Part shown: one piece after another, positions 21,023 through 29,844 of the stretch
Position numbering within the stretch: the first letter of the stretch is position 1
How the letters are laid out: each line of letters opens with the position of its first letter
Assembly (NCBI GenBank): GCA_020429395.1
Contig: JAGQLL010000016.1
Location: forward strand, 1 to 40,609
Reading direction: 5' to 3'
DNA length: 40,609 nt
From: Candidatus Dojkabacteria bacterium
GTDB lineage: Bacteria > Patescibacteriota > Dojkabacteria > B142 > OLB20
Program-made: the position numbers and the translations under genes
The notes under the pieces: model-generated
What the model was told of the DNA's origin: nothing
What the model saw: only the letters and a program-made list of their open reading frames with translations
The model's database searches: none

Positions 21023-21691
21023 TTAAACTCCTTTTGAAAATTTACAATCTGGATAGTTGGAACAGCCTTTGAACTTACCAAATTTACCCACCTTAGGCAC
21101 TAAATGCCCCCCACAATTCGGGCATAAGTCCGAAATTGCTTCTTTAGTGTCAATATCTGTCTTGTTTTCCGCAATCTTTATTAGTTTAATAAGCTTGAAA
21201 CCGTCAATCAGTTCAATTGGTTTTCCTTCCGCAAATCGTTCAGCTTCTTGAGAGAATATATTTGTTGTAATAAATATCCCTTTCCCATTAGATAGGTTAT
21301 GTGTTAATGCTCCATAGAAATCTCTGACATCATGCACGGACACTGTGTTTGTATTATATCTTTTACACTGGATGAGTGATTTTACCCCATTCTTTTCAGC
21401 TATCACATCCACACCTCCGTCATAACTACCACCATTAATCCTAGTTGAATATCCCAATTTAGAGTATAAATGCCCAATATATTCTTCAAACTCATTTGGC
21501 TTTAACTGTTTTAACCAATCTAGCATCTGCCGCTCATTTAGCCAATGATTCTGGAATTTAAACTTTCTATTGCTAACCATAATTCTAAAACCTTTTTTAA
21601 TTAGAACTAAAATGATAGAAATAGCAATAAACCCAAACGCGACATAAAAAAGCGGGCTGAAAGCTTCAAACCATTGGAGTGTAGTTAACAT
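21023..21691 (-). CDS. Membrane-anchored Mrr-like restriction endonuclease with zinc ribbon
   Basis: 222 residues in three parts: an N-terminal membrane helix (about 12-32), an Mrr catalytic domain (about 50-160) and a C-terminal topoisomerase-type C4 zinc ribbon. The nuclease core shows ELEEYIG-like FEEYIGHLY, GGSYDGGVDVIAEKNG and LIQCKRY, giving the Asp and Gln-x-Lys of the PD-(D/E)XK site. The ribbon carries CPNCGGHLV and CSNYPDC. Mrr-family nucleases cut modified DNA; membrane anchoring is known in some members of the family and could place the enzyme where foreign DNA enters. It stands alone between unknown genes and the nucleotide cluster. Confidence 0.87.
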   Translation of the reverse strand: MLTTLQWFEAFSPLFYVAFGFIAISIILVLIKKGFRIMVSNRKFKFQNHWLNERQMLDWLKQLKPNEFEEYIGHLYSKLGYSTRINGGSYDGGVDVIAEKNGVKSLIQCKRYNTNTVSVHDVRDFYGALTHNLSNGKGIFITTNIFSQEAERFAEGKPIELIDGFKLIKLIKIAENKTDIDTKEAISDLCPNCGGHLVPKVGKFGKFKGCSNYPDCKFSKGV

Positions 21692-21880
21692 ATAAGTTCA
21701 ATAATAGTACATAGTTAAACGAATTATACTTCATATTAATAAGAATATTAACTAAACAAAATATCCTATTGTGGAAAAAAGATGACTGACTACAACTTGA
21801 TATTACTACAGATTCTATCTCAATACCTTTCAAGAAATAGTCATTCTATAGTAAAATATTGCAAATTATTAAATATTTAT

Positions 21881-22339
21881 ATGGCTGACAAATCAATTCG
21901 ACCAAGTGTTGTTATAGTTAAAGAAGGAAAAATCTTAGTTCTTAAGAGCAAGTATTCATCTGGAGAATTTTATCTTCTACCAGGTGGAAAGATTGAAAAT
22001 ATGGAAACTACTGTTGAAACTGCAATTCGTGAAGTAAAAGAAGAAACTAATTATGATATTTCAATAAAAAAACTACTATATTTACAAGAGTGGATTGATA
22101 AGATAAGAGCCAAGAATGTTATGTATATGGTATTTCTGGGTGAGATAAATAGCGGTAGCGAGACACATCTGAATGATCCATGGTTAAAGGAAGGAAAAAT
22201 TGAAGGAATTGAGTGGAAAAGTGTAGAAGAATTAAAAGACGAAGAATTTCATCCTAAGGCAATTTTACCTATGCTTGAGGAAGACATTAAGAATGAGTTT
22301 AAAAACGATGCTATCTATATTGATCCAGAAATTAGCTAG
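21881..22339 (+). CDS. Nudix hydrolase (plus-strand partner of the cluster)
   Basis: About 152 residues from the ATG at 21881 (MADKSIRPS). The frame is open to an ATG at 21782, but the extra 33 residues do not look like part of the Nudix fold and overlap promoter-like AT-rich sequence. The Nudix box is intact (GGKIENMETT-AIREVKEETNY) with the usual final Gly replaced by Asn, which is tolerated in the family. These enzymes hydrolyse nucleoside diphosphates linked to another group. Its stop codon overlaps the last codons of the convergent kinase-like gene by 4 bp, so the two ends are locked together. Confidence 0.88.
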   Translation: MADKSIRPSVVIVKEGKILVLKSKYSSGEFYLLPGGKIENMETTVETAIREVKEETNYDISIKKLLYLQEWIDKIRAKNVMYMVFLGEINSGSETHLNDPWLKEGKIEGIEWKSVEELKDEEFHPKAILPMLEEDIKNEFKNDAIYIDPEIS

Positions 22340-23091
22340 CTTATGAGAACTCGTTGTATTTCATCTGCAATAGTTTGAGGCATTGATTCACTATCCTTAT
22401 TCACATAATATGCCAAATTTATTGGTATTGTGCTGTTAGAAAATCCAATAGCATATTCACGGGCGTAATTCCTTGTCATTGTATATTCTTCTTCTACCAA
22501 TTCTCTTGGTTTTGATCTCTTTTTACTGCTATCCCCCTGTTTTCTTTCCATCAATTCATCTACAGTACCTGCCTCTATTAAGACTACAGATAGTCCGATT
22601 CCTCTCTGATCTAGTTCAAAAGCTAATCGTTGTCGCAAATCCATCCTCATACCAGGTATCCATGGCTCATTAATAGCTCTAAGGGTCTCAGAGGTGATAG
22701 TAAAGTGTGTGTCATAGATAAGTGGAGACCTAGTATGGTTTGATATTTAATCAATCAGAAGTTGAAAGGATTTATCTTCATATAATCGCATATCTCCTTT
22801 AAAGAACTCCTTTCGTTGATCGTCTGCTACTCCTGCAACTTGACAGAGTAAGTTTCCAGAATTAATTACCTTAGCACCATTAAGATTAACTAGTTCGTTA
22901 ACGATTGTGGTTTTCCCTGTACCTGAACATCCTCCTATAAGTATCATATGATTTGAATATTCTGATGAGTCAATCTCGGTCCTTTTGTAATATTGACCAA
23001 TTGAGGCATCTTGTGGAGCCCATAATGAAAACCGTTCGATATTTGAGAAGGGCGTATCGGGTTGTTCTACAATATCTTCTTTTATTGTCAT
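22336..23091 (-). pseudogene. Archaeal-type adenylate kinase-like gene broken by one in-frame TAA
   Basis: A single frame of 252 codons is interrupted only by TAA at 22749-22747 (codon 115). Before the stop is a P-loop (GGCSGTGKTT, 53-62), then VINSGN and an Asp/Arg-rich helix. After it, still in frame, comes SPLIYDTHFTITS (D127-T-H129), IEAGTVDELMERK and a C-terminal helix, as in the archaeal AdkA-type adenylate kinases. Homology on both sides shows one gene. Without readthrough the product is a fragment. TAA is one base from GAA, CAA, AAA or TTA. It is the last gene of the operon and overlaps the preceding gene by 4 bp. Confidence 0.82.
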
Positions 23092-23591
23092 TGCTCCTCT
23101 ACAATTGGGTTAACTAATTCAATAAACTCTTCACAATATTCAGCATGTGGTCTCACATGATCATAATTTCTATAGAATCTGAGATTAGGATGAACCATCT
23201 CTGCCATCGCCTGAAATGATGGTTCTCCAGTTTCTTTGCAAACAACCCTTGTGTCAAGTCCCATAATATTGCAACTCTCAAGATATGGACAAAAGTTGTG
23301 AGATTCAATTCTAATCTTAGTAGGAGAGATTCTTTCCATAACAATATCATTCGGATCCAGTTGCATATGATCAAAGTAGATTATATTAAATGCTACTTCC
23401 TCTGGTGATAATCCATTATATTTTTCAATCAAACTAGGACCATGCTCTAACATCCATTTTCTCTTCTTAGCTATTCGTTCCTGATTTACCCTCTCAATTT
23501 CCAAAGGATCATCATTCACACTACTAAGAGTCTGCATTTTCTTTTGAATTGCTGCCCATTCATCGTCTGAGTAAAGTCGTATCTCTTGCAT
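23088..23591 (-). CDS. Unknown four-cysteine protein of the nucleotide cluster
   Basis: 167 residues, no family I can name. Residues 1-60 are helical and basic/acidic. Residues 92-153 hold conserved-looking cysteines: C101 and C107 in FCPYLESCNIMG, C118 in VVCKETG, and C153 after H149 in HAEYC. Four cysteines plus a His could bind zinc or an iron-sulfur cluster. Some resemblance to the L-2-amino-thiazoline-4-carboxylate hydrolase-type proteins is possible but unsure. It sits between the kinase/ParB fusion (5 bp gap) and the broken kinase (4 bp overlap), in an operon that also encodes a radical SAM enzyme. Confidence 0.75.
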   Translation of the reverse strand: MQEIRLYSDDEWAAIQKKMQTLSSVNDDPLEIERVNQERIAKKRKWMLEHGPSLIEKYNGLSPEEVAFNIIYFDHMQLDPNDIVMERISPTKIRIESHNFCPYLESCNIMGLDTRVVCKETGEPSFQAMAEMVHPNLRFYRNYDHVRPHAEYCEEFIELVNPIVEEQ

Positions 23592-23596
23592 AGAAT

Positions 23597-24511
23597 TTAT
23601 TTAAAAGTAAAATCTGCTAACCTTGTTAAAGATAGTTGATTAAATTCATCAGCAGTCATAGGCACTCTTCTTATAAACGCCTTTGCACTTACCAGTTTAA
23701 TTAGATGATGTGCATAAGCCCTATGCCTTCCATCTTCAACCAAATCAACTGAAGAATCATCCTCTTGATTAATCATTCTATGAACAATTAATGGGCGAAC
23801 CTTTCGCTCTGCCTCAATATCTTGTACATATCTTTGTGCTGTTGATGGGTACACTTTAGCCTCCCAACTTACTTGTAGATCAGCAACCCTTACATCTTCT
23901 AATAGTAAGTCTGAGTCAAAAAGAGCCCCGTAACATTCTTCAAGAGTATCATCAATACTTTCATTTGTTGTGTCTACCACTACACATTCGCAACCTAAAC
24001 TAAACATTAATTCTCTATATCTTTGCTTCATTGTTTCATACTGATCTCTTGATTCTAAAGCGGCTTTTTCAAGACGAGATAGTTTTTTTCTAGACTGTGC
24101 TATTGTTAAAACTTCATCATACGATCTTTCAAATAACAAAATTCCTTTAGGCATTATAAAGTTCTCCTGCATTTCTTGCTGGGAAGGAAGTGGAGTACCA
24201 TTAATTATATTTCCATAATAGAGAATGCTTGGAAAATATCTATCTTGTATTACTAGATTCAGAGGAAGATTTTTACTTGTTTTATCTAAAGCATACAGAC
24301 CTTTAAAGTACATCTCTTTATAAGCTGGACTTAATTCACCAATAGAAACAGACTGTATTCCTGATTGTAATGTCGGATCCATGAACTCATGATTATACTG
24401 GCCTGGAATTGGACCATCATTAACGGATTTTTGAGAAAGTAATTTTGAGATTGTAGTTTTTCCAGTAAAATCTAACCCTTCTACTAGTGCATAAGGAACT
24501 TCATTACTCAT
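23597..24511 (-). CDS. Thymidylate kinase-like / ParB-like fusion protein
   Basis: 304 residues. Residues 1-200 resemble thymidylate kinase: VEGLDFTGKTT (P-loop, T16-T20) and QDRYFPS (D90-R91, the DR-Y motif of dTMP kinases), then a lid-like helical part. Residues about 215-285 form a ParB/sulfiredoxin-like domain with YPSTAQRYV, VRPLIVHRM and VEDGRHRAYA (D260-R264). The fusion of a nucleotide kinase to a ParB-like domain is unusual; ParB-fold domains bind CTP and some (SerK/Srx-like) act as kinases, so it could process or sense a nucleotide. It overlaps the Nudix gene by 1 bp and starts 5 bp upstream of the four-cysteine gene. Confidence 0.8.
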   Translation of the reverse strand: MSNEVPYALVEGLDFTGKTTISKLLSQKSVNDGPIPGQYNHEFMDPTLQSGIQSVSIGELSPAYKEMYFKGLYALDKTSKNLPLNLVIQDRYFPSILYYGNIINGTPLPSQQEMQENFIMPKGILLFERSYDEVLTIAQSRKKLSRLEKAALESRDQYETMKQRYRELMFSLGCECVVVDTTNESIDDTLEECYGALFDSDLLLEDVRVADLQVSWEAKVYPSTAQRYVQDIEAERKVRPLIVHRMINQEDDSSVDLVEDGRHRAYAHHLIKLVSAKAFIRRVPMTADEFNQLSLTRLADFTFK

Positions 24512-25029
24512 TATAGATTTCTTTTATAAGTTAAATTAATTTGGGACTGCGTATTATTTATTAAAAATTTTAGAATCTTATCATTTTCAAATTTCATTTT
24601 TGGCGGATTCTGTATATCACACCATTCCACATCATCTACTTCATCAGATTTAAGAACTATGTCACCCAAATAATTAATAACTTCGATAATATAGCCACTG
24701 CTTTCAAGTTTAACTATTCCCTCTACACAGTAAAGATTCTTTATCTTTGAAATTATTTTTGAATTAATAATTTGTATACCTAGCTCTTCCTTCATTTCTC
24801 GTTCCAAACCTTTCTTGTAAGATTCCTTTATTGAAATATCACCACCTGGTAAACAAAGGTTATTCTTCGACTTACTTTTCTTTCTTCTGATCAATAGTAC
24901 TTTTTCATTTTGTTTGATAATTGCTATCACATGACCTTTCAACTTTTCTCGGACGAATTTATGTCTATAATTCTCTATATCCTCCTTGTCCAGTTCAAGT
25001 GTTAATGTTATAGACTTATTTACAATCAT
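24511..25029 (-). CDS. Nudix hydrolase of the nucleotide operon
   Basis: 172 residues. The Nudix box is complete: GGDISIKESYKKGLEREMKEELGI (G-x5-E-x7-RE-x2-EE-x-G), after an IIKQNEKVLLIRRKKSK strand. The N-terminal 30 residues lie before the fold proper. The C-terminal VEWCDIQNPPK segment is a typical substrate-side strand. The enzyme would hydrolyse a nucleoside diphosphate derivative; the substrate is unknown. It overlaps radical SAM by 4 bp and the kinase/ParB fusion by 1 bp, so its level is tied to both. Confidence 0.9.
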   Translation of the reverse strand: MIVNKSITLTLELDKEDIENYRHKFVREKLKGHVIAIIKQNEKVLLIRRKKSKSKNNLCLPGGDISIKESYKKGLEREMKEELGIQIINSKIISKIKNLYCVEGIVKLESSGYIIEVINYLGDIVLKSDEVDDVEWCDIQNPPKMKFENDKILKFLINNTQSQINLTYKRNL

Positions 25030-26207
25030 TTAAAATATCCTTCCTTTGCTTCGTTATCTAATGCATTTCGATTACAACACTTGCAGAGTAACCCTTCAAA
25101 ATCATGACTTTGATATACATCTTGTAATTTACCAGCTGCTTCTATTAAATAGCCCACACCAGGAGCTTTTTTCCCTTGATAAATTGATCCAGGTGTTGGA
25201 TGAAATACGTTAAAAGCAGGAGCTACACCTCGGGCTGCTAGATAATCCCATCCTTCAAACATACTTTCAAGAGGTTCTAAGCCACCAACAAAAGTGGTAT
25301 ATGTACCATTTTTAAATACACCTGCTGCGTACTCTAAAGCGGCTATCATATTATCTCTTCCATAAGATTCATCCTTACCTGGACATACTTCCTTAAATAG
25401 TGCTGGATCCCAAACCTCAAGGTTAAATGAAATATGGTTCATTCCTGCTGCATATGCTTCATCAATTAAAGATAGATCTCTTGGAGGCATAGTTATTAAA
25501 TTTCCATCGATTCTTCTACCAAGTGTATCTGATGCTGCCTTAACAGCCTCGATATACTCTCTAAACTCATCATCATGATTCCATATACTTCCACCTGAAA
25601 ATTGAATGTGGTGAAGGTGATCACCTGTTTCTTGGATTGTTGATAATAGAGCCCTTACCATATCAGAGTTCTTATATTGCTCAGTCTCTCCGTATCGATT
25701 TTGAGTAGCCTTTAATGAACAGAATTTACAAGGTTGTGCACCTTCCCAATATGTACAAGTTTCTCGCATAAAAAACGAAACAGCTCCCATTCCGAGGGTA
25801 ACCCCTATTCTTTTTGCAGGGATTCCTTTAACTACCTCTCTATCATAATATTCAGGTCTGTCATGAAAACCAACACCTGTAATTCTTTTCCCATCGTAAT
25901 TTAGGGCAAACCCTTCATCCTCAGCAGCAATTTCCCATGGAGATTCATCTCTCCAATGTGTTCCTACTACAATATCATCTCCAAGTATTAATTCTTGAGG
26001 TACAGTTACTATTTTTGTGAAATCAGAACTATTATAGCTTCTAATTTTCTCTTTTACCTTTGACCCCACTGGTAATAAAGCACTTTCATGAAATCGCATG
26101 CCTTGCGAGAGAAGAGCAAGCTTAACATGAGCTGGATTAGAGAGATCGAGCTTTTCTACATCTGGGTCTTTTTCATACCCACCAGTTATCTCAATTAAAT
26201 CTACCAT
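25026..26207 (-). CDS. Radical SAM enzyme with CX8CX2C cluster motif
   Basis: 393 residues. After a 150-residue N-terminal extension comes the iron-sulfur motif CTYWEGAQPCKFC (C151, C160, C163), spaced CX8CX2C instead of the usual CX3CX2C. A GGSIW SAM-binding segment follows (FSGGS), then the barrel strands with ISFNLEVWD and GRDNMIAALEYA, and the C-terminal VFHPTPGS. The C-terminus adds a CKCC tetrad-like motif (GLLCKCCNRN). Radical SAM enzymes carry out methylation, thiolation, isomerisation or ring chemistry. It lies 2 bp from the HAD gene and overlaps the Nudix gene by 4 bp, placing it at the heart of the operon. Confidence 0.87.
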   Translation of the reverse strand: MVDLIEITGGYEKDPDVEKLDLSNPAHVKLALLSQGMRFHESALLPVGSKVKEKIRSYNSSDFTKIVTVPQELILGDDIVVGTHWRDESPWEIAAEDEGFALNYDGKRITGVGFHDRPEYYDREVVKGIPAKRIGVTLGMGAVSFFMRETCTYWEGAQPCKFCSLKATQNRYGETEQYKNSDMVRALLSTIQETGDHLHHIQFSGGSIWNHDDEFREYIEAVKAASDTLGRRIDGNLITMPPRDLSLIDEAYAAGMNHISFNLEVWDPALFKEVCPGKDESYGRDNMIAALEYAAGVFKNGTYTTFVGGLEPLESMFEGWDYLAARGVAPAFNVFHPTPGSIYQGKKAPGVGYLIEAAGKLQDVYQSHDFEGLLCKCCNRNALDNEAKEGYFK

Positions 26208-26209
26208 TG

Positions 26210-26923
26210 TTAAAAGTTAATAAAGTTATTTAAAATATATTCAGGAACTTCTGATAATACTGTTCCTGTAGAATCTTCCTCATCTAATTGTTTGATTTTG
26301 ATTACCTTGTCAATACCTGCCATCCTTGCTCCCTCAATGTCATTCTTTTCATCATTCCCAATAAATAGACATTCATTTTTTTTAATATGATATTTACTCA
26401 AAACAAGATCAAAAAATTTCGCATTTGGCTTTCTTACGCCAAAATCAACTGAAAAACCATAAAAATTGAAGTATTTTAAAATATCAAACTGAATCATGGC
26501 TGCGATTGAATACTGAGAATCTATTCCGAAAGGCGAGTTCGACAGTATTCCTAATTTATATGTTTTGCTTAGTTTTGATAGTACCTCATGTGTATTAGGG
26601 TCTAAATAAAGGGAATCAAAGTACTTTGAGGAAAAAATATGAATAATGTCTTTTGTGATTTTTTTATTTAAACCATAGATTTCAGAAAGACTAGAACCTA
26701 AATTATCTATATGAATCTCAATATCATTCTTATACTTTTTAATTCTGAGTTTATTAATTTCATTTTTAATATCTTTAAATTTAATTTGGCTCACACCTCT
26801 CTTATTCAGGTAGTCCAACACCTCATTAATACAATAATTAGATTCATTCTCTATATCTCCTGTAAGAGCTCTATCTCTAAAGTATAATAATGTCTCACCT
26901 AAATCAAAAATGATAGTTTTCAT
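26210..26923 (-). CDS. HAD-superfamily hydrolase
   Basis: 237 residues. Motif I is IIFDLGETLLY, where the second Asp of DxDxT is Gly, a variant common in uncharacterised HAD proteins. Motif II is the Ser in GILSNSP, motif III the Lys in GVRKPNAKFF, and motif IV FIGNDEKNDIEGARMAG. The helical cap between motifs I and II (about 20-100) marks a subfamily I protein. It would act on a phosphate ester, plausibly a nucleotide or sugar phosphate, but the loss of the acid/base Asp makes activity less certain. It overlaps the phosphoribosyltransferase-like gene by 4 bp. Confidence 0.88.
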   Translation of the reverse strand: MKTIIFDLGETLLYFRDRALTGDIENESNYCINEVLDYLNKRGVSQIKFKDIKNEINKLRIKKYKNDIEIHIDNLGSSLSEIYGLNKKITKDIIHIFSSKYFDSLYLDPNTHEVLSKLSKTYKLGILSNSPFGIDSQYSIAAMIQFDILKYFNFYGFSVDFGVRKPNAKFFDLVLSKYHIKKNECLFIGNDEKNDIEGARMAGIDKVIKIKQLDEEDSTGTVLSEVPEYILNNFINF

Positions 26924-27837
26924 AAATTTAGTGATTCTCTAATTAAATTAAAATACCAACCCTCTTTATTGAAATTTACATCCTTACTATTGAACAATTT
27001 ATTGTTAATTATGAAGTAGTCACTTAATCGAATACTAGACTCTGTCTTTGGAAAAAGAGCAACAGTCTTAGAGTCAGCAATGAAATCTTTTAGATATTTC
27101 AAAGTATTACCAGTATATGACCTGTCAATAATTATTGGCCTATCTATATCTTCCTTTGTTAGGTTTGAAATGAAATTTTTATCTAGTGGTGCTTTCCTGT
27201 ATTGTTCATATGGATCGTGTGAATGATGATATTCAGTTAAGCATAAATTTTTGTTTTTTGTGGTATTGTAAAAACCGCGGAGAAAAGGTATCCCTGAATG
27301 TGCGACAAAAATATAACTATTTCCAAGTTCAGCAACTTCGTTCCAGACAGATCCTTCACGTGCATAATTTCCTGAATAAAGTTTAAATTTATCTTCAAAA
27401 CCTTTTCTAGGTCCATACTTACTGTAATCTTTTTTAAATGTTTCGAGGATTGATGAATTTTTACATTCAACAACTTTCATTAGGTTAAGTTTTTGCTTTT
27501 GTTTCTTTATGCCTAATTCGCTTATTGCTTCGAATAGGATCTGATTTCTAATTGATCTAAGTATTGTTATATCATTTGAGACGAGGCGTATCTCAAATTC
27601 TGTGTGCTCAACTATTTCTACTGAAGCAAAATCAAATTCTTTTAGCAGTCGATTAATATTGGTTTGAATCCACACCCATATTTTAAAAATATCTTCTATA
27701 TCAACTCTGTCTAATTCTTGTGGTATGTCAGATATATCAATGATACTCAACTCTGGTAATCTATTCCCTTGAGAATCATAGAAACCAAATCTATTGTGTA
27801 CAGCACTCCATACTTTTTGAATCTGTTCTGACATCAT
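26920..27837 (-). CDS. Phosphoribosyltransferase-like protein
   Basis: 305 residues. The C-terminal half contains two loops of the PRTase fold: IFVAHSGIPFLRGFYN (177-191), like the pyrophosphate loop, and PIIIDRSYTGNTLKYLKDFI (234-253), like the PRPP-binding loop with the usual acidic pair reduced to D-R. The N-terminal 170 residues match nothing I know and may bind the base or a partner. If active, it would move a ribose-phosphate to or from a base. It overlaps the adenylate-kinase-like and HAD genes by 4 bp each, so the three are translated in strict order. Confidence 0.72.
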   Translation of the reverse strand: MMSEQIQKVWSAVHNRFGFYDSQGNRLPELSIIDISDIPQELDRVDIEDIFKIWVWIQTNINRLLKEFDFASVEIVEHTEFEIRLVSNDITILRSIRNQILFEAISELGIKKQKQKLNLMKVVECKNSSILETFKKDYSKYGPRKGFEDKFKLYSGNYAREGSVWNEVAELGNSYIFVAHSGIPFLRGFYNTTKNKNLCLTEYHHSHDPYEQYRKAPLDKNFISNLTKEDIDRPIIIDRSYTGNTLKYLKDFIADSKTVALFPKTESSIRLSDYFIINNKLFNSKDVNFNKEGWYFNLIRESLNL

Positions 27838-28481
27838 TTGTTATTAATAAAATCAACGGGTAGTTCTTCTCCAACTCGTTTTATTTCTATTATCCGACTT
27901 ACATCAACTGCTAACTCCATCGGTTCTCTTGACTCTGTATTTAAAGTAACCAGTCCTTCACCAGAATTATAATAATCCACTAATTCATTATTGGTGATTC
28001 TAAAACCATCAAGTAAATTCAGACCATTAAGTCCATCAGGTCTATTCTCAAGCTTATGCCTTTGTTCGATTCTTGTTACTAAAGTTTTATCGTCACAAAT
28101 TAAATGTATATTTAACATTCTGATATTTAAACCAAGCTCCCTAACCCTTGTGTCAAAATCTTTTGCTTGGCGAATTGTCTTTATCGATCCTGGAAGAATA
28201 AATGAACTAGATTTGTCTAAATTGAAGGTAAGTTCTCCAACAAGAATACTGGTCATTAAGTCATCTGGTAAATGTTCACCATTTCTATAATTGGTTTCGA
28301 AAGGTTTTAAGATTGAAGAGTAACGCTGAGAGTAAGGATTAGGAATATTTTCAGTAAAGCATGCTCTTAATATTTCGCCAGTTGAAATGACATGAAAATC
28401 AAACTCAGAAGCTAATTGATGGGCAAGTGTGGATTTTCCTACTCCAGGTAATCCAAATAAATTTATAATAATTGGTTGCAT
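27834..28481 (-). CDS. Adenylate kinase-like nucleotide kinase with altered substrate loop
   Basis: 215 residues, normal adenylate kinase length. The P-loop GLPGVGKST (10-18) and the ISTGEILR segment (33-39) match adenylate kinase. However, the NMP-binding FILDGFPRT is replaced by FILPGSIKT (94-102), which loses the Asp, Phe-Pro and Arg that contact the substrate phosphate. The R-x-DG end and the YYNSGEGL C-terminus are kept. It may therefore phosphorylate a different nucleotide or none. It is the first gene of the eight-gene operon, directly behind the palindromic promoter, and ends in a 4 bp overlap. Confidence 0.85.
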   Translation of the reverse strand: MQPIIINLFGLPGVGKSTLAHQLASEFDFHVISTGEILRACFTENIPNPYSQRYSSILKPFETNYRNGEHLPDDLMTSILVGELTFNLDKSSSFILPGSIKTIRQAKDFDTRVRELGLNIRMLNIHLICDDKTLVTRIEQRHKLENRPDGLNGLNLLDGFRITNNELVDYYNSGEGLVTLNTESREPMELAVDVSRIIEIKRVGEELPVDFINNK

Positions 28482-28493
28482 GGTTTATATTAA

Positions 28494-28517
28494 CTATGCA
28501 CACGTAAGTGTGCATAG
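28494..28517. promoter_or_regulatory. Perfect 10+10 bp palindrome, probable operator
   Basis: CTATGCACAC (28494-28503) and its exact reverse complement (28508-28517) are separated by 4 bases. The palindrome begins right after the -10 box of the minus-strand promoter and covers the expected transcription start, 13 bp before the first gene. A repressor bound here would block the operon. As RNA it would also make a 5' hairpin. The adjacent ribbon-helix-helix protein is the obvious candidate binder. Confidence 0.85.
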
Positions 28518-28546
28518 ATTATATTATACTGTCAGAATACAGTCAA
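28518..28546 (-). promoter_or_regulatory. Near-consensus promoter of the nucleotide operon
   Basis: On the minus strand, TTGACT (28546-28541) is followed by exactly 17 bases and TATAAT (28523-28518). A second overlapping TATAAT begins five bases earlier but would give a 12-base spacer, so the downstream one is preferred. This is the best sigma70-type promoter in the window. Such a strong promoter usually needs repression, which the adjoining palindrome would supply. Confidence 0.8.
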
Positions 28547-28566
28547 CACTAGGAGTATGCTATAAT
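28528..28566 (+). promoter_or_regulatory. Regulator promoter with a second inverted repeat
   Basis: TGCTATAAT (28558-28566) is a complete extended -10 box on the plus strand, 32 bp before the regulator ATG; no good -35 is seen. ACTGT-CAGAAT-ACAGT (28528-28543) is a 5+5 bp inverted repeat between the two divergent promoters and overlaps the other promoter's spacer. It could be a second site through which the regulator controls both directions. Confidence 0.5.
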
Positions 28567-28598
28567 TTGATATATAGAAAAGTTATTTGATTAATAGT

Positions 28599-29159
28599 AT
28601 GAAGGTATTTCTTTCAGCAATTATTGAAGATAAAAAAAGGGTGGGTATCTTTAACTCCTTAAAAGAAGAAATTAGCCAAAATCATAGCTTAGAAGCTAGA
28701 TCTAAAAAGCAATCTACCCAATCAGAATCAACAAAGTCAGGTATTACAAAGAAAGCAATAATCACCTCCGATTGTTGCATATTCGAAGTAACAACTCAGG
28801 ATATTGACTTAGGATATCAGATATACCTATCATTGCAAAAAAGTAAGCCAACTTTAGTCCTGATGGATAAAAAATTCGGAGATCCTTCAGATATATTCAT
28901 TGGATTTGACTCAAAATATCTTATCGCTAAAAATTATTCTAATAATCACGACTTGAGACTAATTGTCTCAAAATTTCTCAAAGAAAGTAATATAGAAAGT
29001 CGAGTTCGTTTTCACCTAGTGGTCGATAAGAGTCTAGATGATTATATTGAATGGGCAAGTACTGAATATAAGATAACTAAAACAGATGTTATAAAAAACT
29101 CACTACAAAATACCTTAGCAAACGACAGAAAGTATCGATTACTCAATGATAATAGCTAA
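28599..29159 (+). CDS. Deoxyribosyltransferase-like sensor fused to ribbon-helix-helix DNA-binding domain
   Basis: 186 residues from the ATG at 28599; an upstream TTG in frame is less likely. Residues 1-128 resemble nucleoside 2-deoxyribosyltransferase/DNPH1 proteins: MKVFLSAII start, CCIFEVTTQD (59-68), DLGYQIYLSLQKSKPTLVL (70-88). The catalytic Glu expected at the 'GxE' position is Gln (Q74), so it probably binds but does not cleave a nucleotide. Residues about 135-181 look like a ribbon-helix-helix domain (RVRFHLVVDKSL strand, then two helices). I infer a nucleotide-responsive repressor of the divergent operon through the palindrome at 28494-28517. Confidence 0.7.
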   Translation: MKVFLSAIIEDKKRVGIFNSLKEEISQNHSLEARSKKQSTQSESTKSGITKKAIITSDCCIFEVTTQDIDLGYQIYLSLQKSKPTLVLMDKKFGDPSDIFIGFDSKYLIAKNYSNNHDLRLIVSKFLKESNIESRVRFHLVVDKSLDDYIEWASTEYKITKTDVIKNSLQNTLANDRKYRLLNDNS

Positions 29160-29756
29160 ACACCCAGAGATACCGTTCACTCAATAAGATTAGTTAGATT
29201 AATCCAATTTCTTTATATTTGACCTGATTGGACTAATCGTACACCATCCTTCTCTATTTATTTTGTATTTTCTTCCTTTCTAATATCTCTATCTCATTTT
29301 ATTTCTTCTGGACGATCTAATCGATCAAAACTAAGTCCACTTAGCTCTTTGCTACTAAATAGTTATTGTTCCAAGGGCAAGCAAACCTTAATGAGTTGTA
29401 ATAGAATTTATTTTTTAATTATGAATTTTGTGTGTCCTCATATTCAACAGTCCTATTTTTAAAATGATACTATTTAATCCAATTAAAATTTGATTGTTTC
29501 TAATCTAATAAGATAAATAGAGAACTATTATTGCGAATATCCACAAACCAAATATAGGACATATTAATATAATATCAAAAATCATAATCACAACATAAAA
29601 GCTTAGAACCAAGCGACTATCGAATTTACACGATTCGAGCCCTTTTAGGCGGTTTTGGAGGATTATAGGGACTTCACGAATTATCGCAAGCCCTAGAACT
29701 AGAGGAGAAAGCGATATAAAGGCAGGGGGACGAGTCTTGTCAGAACATTGCAATTC
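29160..29756. other. Gene-free stretch between the regulator and tRNA-Ser
   Basis: 597 bases with no credible gene; the one longer frame here continues through the tRNA gene. Shortly after the regulator stop there is an inverted repeat, GATTAATCCAAT (29197-29208) with ATTGGACTAATC (29227-29238), 12 bp with one mismatch and an 18-base loop, possibly a terminator-like or processing hairpin though no T-run follows directly. The rest is AT-rich without other clear signals. It forms the inner right margin of the island. Confidence 0.6.
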
Positions 29757-29844
29757 TGGCGGAGAGGACAGGATTCGAACCTGCGGTCCCTTGCGGAACA
29801 CTGGTTTTCAAGACCAGCTCATTAGACCACTCTGACACCTCTCC
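29757..29844 (-). tRNA. tRNA-Ser (anticodon UGA), CCA encoded
   Basis: 88 bases on the minus strand. The acceptor stem is GGAGAGG/CCTCTCC (7 bp), the anticodon stem CTGGT/ACCAG encloses the loop CTTGAAA with anticodon TGA (UCA codons), the variable arm is long (TTCC-GCAA-GGGA) as in class II tRNAs, and the T arm carries GTTCGAAT. The discriminator is G and CCA is encoded (29759-29757). Its 3' end and its 5' half are duplicated elsewhere in the window, which points to use as an integration site. It appears intact and functional. Confidence 0.97.

Follow-up and report, generated by a model that had tools for sequence, protein, structure and literature searches.

A DNPH1-like domain fused to a ribbon-helix-helix domain in Candidatus Dojkabacteria: a candidate nucleotide-sensing regulator beside a divergent kinase operon

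To our knowledge, little is known on how Patescibacteria (CPR), with their genomes of about 1 Mb, sense anything. A gene in the 1.07-Mb draft genome of a member of Candidatus Dojkabacteria (WS6) raises the question whether an enzyme fold of nucleotide metabolism has become the sensor of a transcriptional regulator. The gene lies in a stretch of 40,609 nucleotides, called the window here, stands alone on its own strand and has a kinase gene as its divergent neighbor. The coordinates of all features are listed in Table 1.

Table 1. Features of the regulator gene, its intergenic region and the divergent operon (positions in the window).
Feature	Position	Strand	Basis or remark
NDT/DNPH1-like + RHH protein, 186 aa	28599–29159	+	ATG start at 28599; homolog comparison
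N-terminal DNPH1/MilB-fold domain (predicted), residues 1–131	28599–28991	+	model and alignment; catalytic residues replaced: Y24>F4, D80>T50, S98>D68, E104>Q74 (human DNPH1 numbering)
Q74 codon, aligned with DNPH1 nucleophile Glu104	28818–28820	+	alignment
C-terminal ribbon-helix-helix (RHH) domain (predicted): strand RFHLVV, helices ~144–157 and 161–175	29007–29156	+	model, Foldseek, profiles
Perfect palindrome CTATGCACAC-GTAA-GTGTGCATAG, 10-bp arms, proposed operator	28494–28517		half-site TATGCACA common to conserved repeats upstream of homologs
Sigma70-like promoter of divergent operon, TTGACT-17-TATAAT	28518–28546	-	best promoter match in region; -10 abuts palindrome
Extended -10 (TGC-TATAAT), probably part of the regulator's own promoter	28558–28566	+	read from sequence
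Adenylate-kinase-like NMP kinase, first gene of proposed target operon	27834–28481	-	ADK E=5e-16
Remainder of divergent operon: 305-aa unknown, HAD phosphatase (CTE7/YjjG-like), variant radical SAM, NUDIX, dTMP-kinase-like, small ORFs	22747–27837	-	domain searches

Fold of the two domains

A second in-frame start candidate, TTG at 28587, was not favored, because the N-termini of the homologs read M-K-[IV]. The predicted full-length model reached a pLDDT of 82, with low confidence around residues ~31–40. Its N-terminal part (residues 1–131, up to 134) has the Rossmann-like alpha/beta fold of NDTs and was superimposed best on human DNPH1 (Z 16.6, 2.1 Å, 124 residues), followed by the CMP and hmCMP N-glycosidases MilB (Z 16.1) and BcmB (Z 15.2), whereas the NDTs scored lower (Z 12.3–13.2). 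The NDT/DNPH1-like fold proposed in an earlier sequence-only reading was thus recovered, but the nearest enzymes are the DNPH1/MilB N-hydrolases and not Lactobacillus NDT. At the sequence level the family profile matched rat DNPH1 with E=2e-16. Nucleoside 2-deoxyribosyltransferases of the Lactobacillus type (PF05014) belong to the same superfamily and homologs of the window protein do match this model (e.g., L008, E=1.8e-13); the window protein itself lacks their nucleophile Glu and is too divergent for a direct match to PF05014.

The last ~50 residues, in which an RHH pattern had been noticed from the sequence, were modeled alone (pLDDT 88), and CopG, ORF56 and Arc took the first three places in the Foldseek search. 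Nearly all further matches listed were RHH proteins as well, including NikR, ParD and PutA. The single matches are weak (best Z ~6 over 45–53 residues, E-values of 0.4 or worse) because the domain is tiny (~45 residues), and the assignment is therefore based on how uniform the list is and on independent profile matches, namely of the C-terminal profile to TTHA0139 (E=0.002) and to a CopG-family protein (E=0.005); Pfam RHH_1 was matched by 6 of 20 family members. The modeled part has the beta-alpha-alpha fold of the RHH (MetJ/Arc) superfamily, and its strand shows the residue alternation of RHH proteins, so that the RHH pattern noticed earlier was borne out. As judged from these models, the window protein is a genuine two-domain protein with a DNPH1/MilB-like fold and an RHH domain, and the latter very probably binds DNA. 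CopG and Arc share the fold of the C-terminal 50 residues and small palindromic or repeated sites, but they stand alone, without a nucleotide-fold domain. In NikR and PutA, both with the RHH at the N-terminus, a second domain (sensor or enzyme) is likewise fused to the RHH and controls it, but the partner fold and the ligand are others.

Loss of the catalytic residues and distribution of the family

For the comparison of active sites, 68 family proteins were aligned with rat DNPH1. Of these, 66 show the same fused two-domain architecture; they derive from several groups of Patescibacteria, and the window protein is at most 39% identical to any homolog over the matched part. In the window protein every catalytic and phosphate-contact position of DNPH1 that was checked is altered (F, E, gap, gap, T, D, D, Q), and none of Tyr24, Asp80 and Glu104, which mark a DNPH1 enzyme, is present. 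Q74 was indeed found at the position of the catalytic Glu, as had been read from the sequence. Asp80 is kept in none of the 66 fused proteins. Glu104 is lost in 43 of them: 22, among them the window protein, carry Gln and the remainder Leu, Asp, Tyr, Ile, Val or His. With Glu retained in 23 of 66 we rejected the exchange of Glu for Gln as a mark of the entire family, which is defined by the loss of Asp instead. The full set Y-D-S-G-E occurs only in the two aligned proteins without RHH, which stand alone, comprise 136 aa each and are DNPH1/NDT-like: G000:C48:6866-7291 (L120:4958-5368), encoded in the window's own genome, and the protein of G001:C4 (L121:5047-5457). By their residues these two are probably true enzymes. 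Fusion to the RHH thus goes along with loss of catalysis.

Within the Q clade the altered set Y-A-R-D-C-N-S-Q is almost invariant in most members, from Dojkabacteria, Doudnabacteria, WWE3, Saccharibacteria and Paceibacterota, as would be expected of a retained, non-catalytic binding site. In DNPH1 the exchange E104Q abolishes hydrolysis, and intact hmdUMP is still bound (PMC10603095; PMC12751057). The window protein resembles DNPH1/Rcl (2′-deoxynucleoside 5′-phosphate N-hydrolase 1) in the fold of its N-domain and, with Q74, this inactive, substrate-holding mutant; it differs from DNPH1, as from MilB and BcmB, by the replaced catalytic residues and the added RHH, and by residue content its N-domain is most likely non-catalytic. 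The pocket motif TRDW, conserved in the Q clade, is missing from the window protein; since its active-site set is also more divergent and the model is of low confidence around residues ~31–40, it may have a different ligand or have lost ligand binding.

At least one homolog was found in 35 of 96 relatives by sequence search and in 36 of 85 members of the class by profile search. Across the sample of the phylum, 58 of 379 genomes carried homologs, a part of these matches being without RHH. Named matches belong to Dojkabacteria, WWE3, Saccharibacteria, Paceibacterota, Shapirobacteria and Doudnabacteria, and the window's own genome encodes two further RHH-fused homologs. A search for viral relatives found none, and phage and plasmid records gave no match. 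In two other Patescibacteria (L161:1501-2640 and L164:1501-2622) a DNPH1-like domain with Leu at the position of the catalytic Glu is joined to a domain resembling thymidylate kinase, and RHH is absent; here the inactive domain may act directly on an enzyme as its regulator. Our literature searches found no published description of an NDT/DNPH1-RHH regulator, although the survey of nucleotide conflict systems by Burroughs and Aravind lay outside their coverage and may hold an earlier mention.

Divergent genes, palindrome and upstream repeats

The 305-aa protein of the divergent operon (26920–27837, minus strand) had no significant match in Pfam, NCBIfam or the PDB. The distal end of the nucleotide-related cluster in the window further encodes a second NUDIX hydrolase (21782–22339, plus strand) and a protein with an Mrr-type restriction endonuclease domain and a topoisomerase zinc ribbon (21023–21691, minus strand). 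A 98-aa ORF at 29505–29801 (minus strand) overlaps the tRNA-Ser(tga) gene at 29757–29844 and is probably spurious.

Genes in the Q-type portion of the tree almost always have a divergent partner. According to Pfam, 22 of the 26 partners act on nucleotides (16 NUDIX, two Ham1, one MazG, one dUTPase_2/MazG-like, one YfbR-like 5′-deoxynucleotidase and the adenylate-kinase-like protein of the window), counts which come from related loci and not from phylogenetically independent events. Genes of the E-type clade mostly lie between conserved convergent genes, and those of a third clade are often divergent to a gene of the glyoxalase fold. Inspection by eye placed eight NDT-RHH genes of a sister clade (L107, L108, L112, L114, L157, L159, L160, and L165) opposite a glyoxalase/VOC-fold gene, often with TACATA/TACGTA repeats upstream, and the divergent ORFs of L146 and L158, which neighbor NDT-RHH genes, appeared Ppx/GppA-like, apparently with an NDT-like segment.

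The palindrome between regulator and kinase gene was confirmed with perfect arms; when the 117 bp between the genes were shuffled, arms of at least 10 bp arose in 0.9% of cases. No second copy of the palindrome occurs in the 1.07-Mb genome when up to three mismatches are tolerated, and the pattern TATGCACA-N(0-20)-TGTGCATA has a single occurrence in the whole genome. With a half-site matrix made from the homologs, the window being left out, the two arms came third and fourth of ~81,200 positions, behind two sites in coding sequence. The half-sites are inverted in the palindrome, their TGCA cores being 14 bp apart, whereas in the Q clade the half-sites repeat in the same direction, at distances of 9 and 11 bp. 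The sequence-only reading had placed the palindrome beside the regulator gene; it lies at the start site of the kinase-Nudix operon and not in the regulator's own promoter, whose extended -10 is ~40 bp away, so that the likely target here is the divergent operon. Besides the palindrome, the genome-wide search for half-sites returned just three pairs of directly repeated TGCACA, of which one precedes the Q-type paralog encoded in the same genome; with so few pairs, control looks local. That the window protein binds the palindrome is, on these grounds, probable.

Upstream of the Q-type genes, TATGCACATnTTGCACAT matched 11–16 of 16 positions in 15/15 loci and is accompanied by a third, looser repeat. 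In this clade a TATGCACAT repeat covers the -35 box from which each regulator gene would itself be transcribed: the -35 hexamer is the second repeat, which reads TTGCAC (in one locus TTGTGT), and the -10, a TAnnnT hexamer, follows after exactly 17 bp in all 12 loci tested. The repeats of the Q clade thus overlie both this -35 box and the spacer behind it. Promoter-overlapping repeats, as of an autoregulated repressor, are hence present in the family; the window itself has only a shared half-site at a divergent promoter. Other clades carry other elements: TGTGTAGTCATTACACA palindromes in a sister clade, TACATA/TATGTA in the third clade (11/14, shuffled mean 4.4) and TATATA in the E clade (19/21, shuffled mean 8.8, confounded by overlap with ordinary -10 boxes). 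The related protein of L141/L145 is preceded by the palindrome TGTGTAT-GCG-ATACACA, at a distance to the ATG similar to that in the window. As candidate operator DNAs we propose the palindrome at 28494–28517 and TATGCACATATTGCACATAAGTTGCACAT.

Proposed regulation and alternative explanations

We infer, with a probability of roughly 0.6, that the window protein is an enzyme-derived, non-catalytic sensor of nucleotides or nucleosides and a one-component repressor of the divergent nucleotide operon, including its DNA binding, its binding of the palindrome, the class of the ligand and the direction of the response. The C-terminal RHH, as a dimer or higher oligomer, would bind the TGCA-centered half-sites of the palindrome directly downstream of the divergent -10 and would thereby block transcription of the operon for NMP kinase, HAD, radical SAM, NUDIX and dTMP-kinase-like proteins. 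The N-domain, which keeps the nucleotide N-glycosidase fold of the DNPH1/MilB group, would by its residues be unable to cut, as the nucleophile (Q74), the acid (T50), and the Tyr (F4) are lost, and its pocket probably still binds a nucleoside or nucleotide. Ligand binding would alter the arrangement of the RHH and release repression; a ligand of this type with relief of repression is somewhat favored. The earlier proposal that an enzyme fold has become a repressor responsive to a ligand, with ligand and repression still putative, gains support from the loss of residues along with RHH fusion, the conserved altered site of the Q clade, the promoter repeats and the nucleotide-handling neighbors. 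Against it we count that close orthologs for a comparison of the window operator are lacking (≤39% identity), that the half-site geometry is unlike that of the Q clade, that TRDW is missing and that the Q-clade neighbors are not independent. NrtR, a Nudix-derived winged-helix repressor, follows the same principle of an enzyme-derived nucleotide-binding domain as sensor, but an assignment to the NrtR family was rejected, as the window protein has an NDT/DNPH1 fold with RHH instead of Nudix with a winged helix.

The palindrome might have nothing to do with the protein and be a 5′ hairpin of the divergent kinase mRNA or the operator of another factor. It does lie in the predicted kinase 5′ leader, scans as a stem-loop and has a geometry unlike the direct repeats of the homologs; we consider this rather unlikely, however, since the 8-bp half-site is common to the homologs' operators, whose direct repeats cannot form hairpins, and the motif is rare in the genome. 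Nor do we expect that the N-domain is a mere dimerization scaffold without ligand and the RHH a constitutive autorepressor, which is an unlikely reading, although the window protein deviates from DNPH1 at every catalytic and phosphate-contact position checked and DNPH1 is a homodimer (PMC10603095), so that the fold could serve dimerization alone. A pure scaffold would not need the altered pocket YARDCNSQ, constant over several phyla, and the targets are consistently nucleotide enzymes.

A bifunctional, PutA-like protein, in which the N-domain still hydrolyzes or transfers nucleosides and the RHH autoregulates, is very improbable. The Glu104 kept in 23 of 66 fused relatives would speak for it, but Asp is found in no RHH-fused member, the same genome encodes a separate, catalytically intact protein, and we rejected it for the window protein on residue content, its nucleophile, acid and Tyr positions being occupied by Q, T and F, respectively. 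RHH domains are common in antitoxins, the C-terminal matches include TacA and ParD antitoxins, and one full-length homolog weakly matches TIR-like ThsB. A role as antitoxin or other component of a conflict system is nevertheless hardly credible, because no toxin-like partner lies beside the window gene, PADLOC gave no match for the protein and the Q-clade partners are nucleotide pyrophosphohydrolases; the absence of an adjacent co-transcribed toxin gene led us to reject a type II antitoxin.

In many bacteria with tiny genomes, relatives of the gene lie beside genes whose products remove damaged DNA precursors, which suggests that they form a novel family of nucleotide sensors. Tentatively, and with less confidence than for the window protein, we propose a widespread family of Patescibacteria repressors, whose naturally inactive DNPH1-type pocket, with Gln for Glu and without the Asp, would hold damaged or non-canonical nucleotides uncut and de-repress house-cleaning pyrophosphohydrolases (NUDIX, Ham1, MazG, YfbR) and nucleotide kinases, as a dedicated transcriptional alarm for damage to the nucleotide pool. 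The explanation supplies concrete candidates for operators, target genes and ligands. If it is true, evolution would have arrived at the very Glu-to-Gln exchange by which crystallographers trapped substrate in DNPH1, and several CPR groups would possess a previously undescribed transcription-factor family, in which the pocket of a nucleotide hydrolase became a sensor tied to the sanitation of the nucleotide pool.
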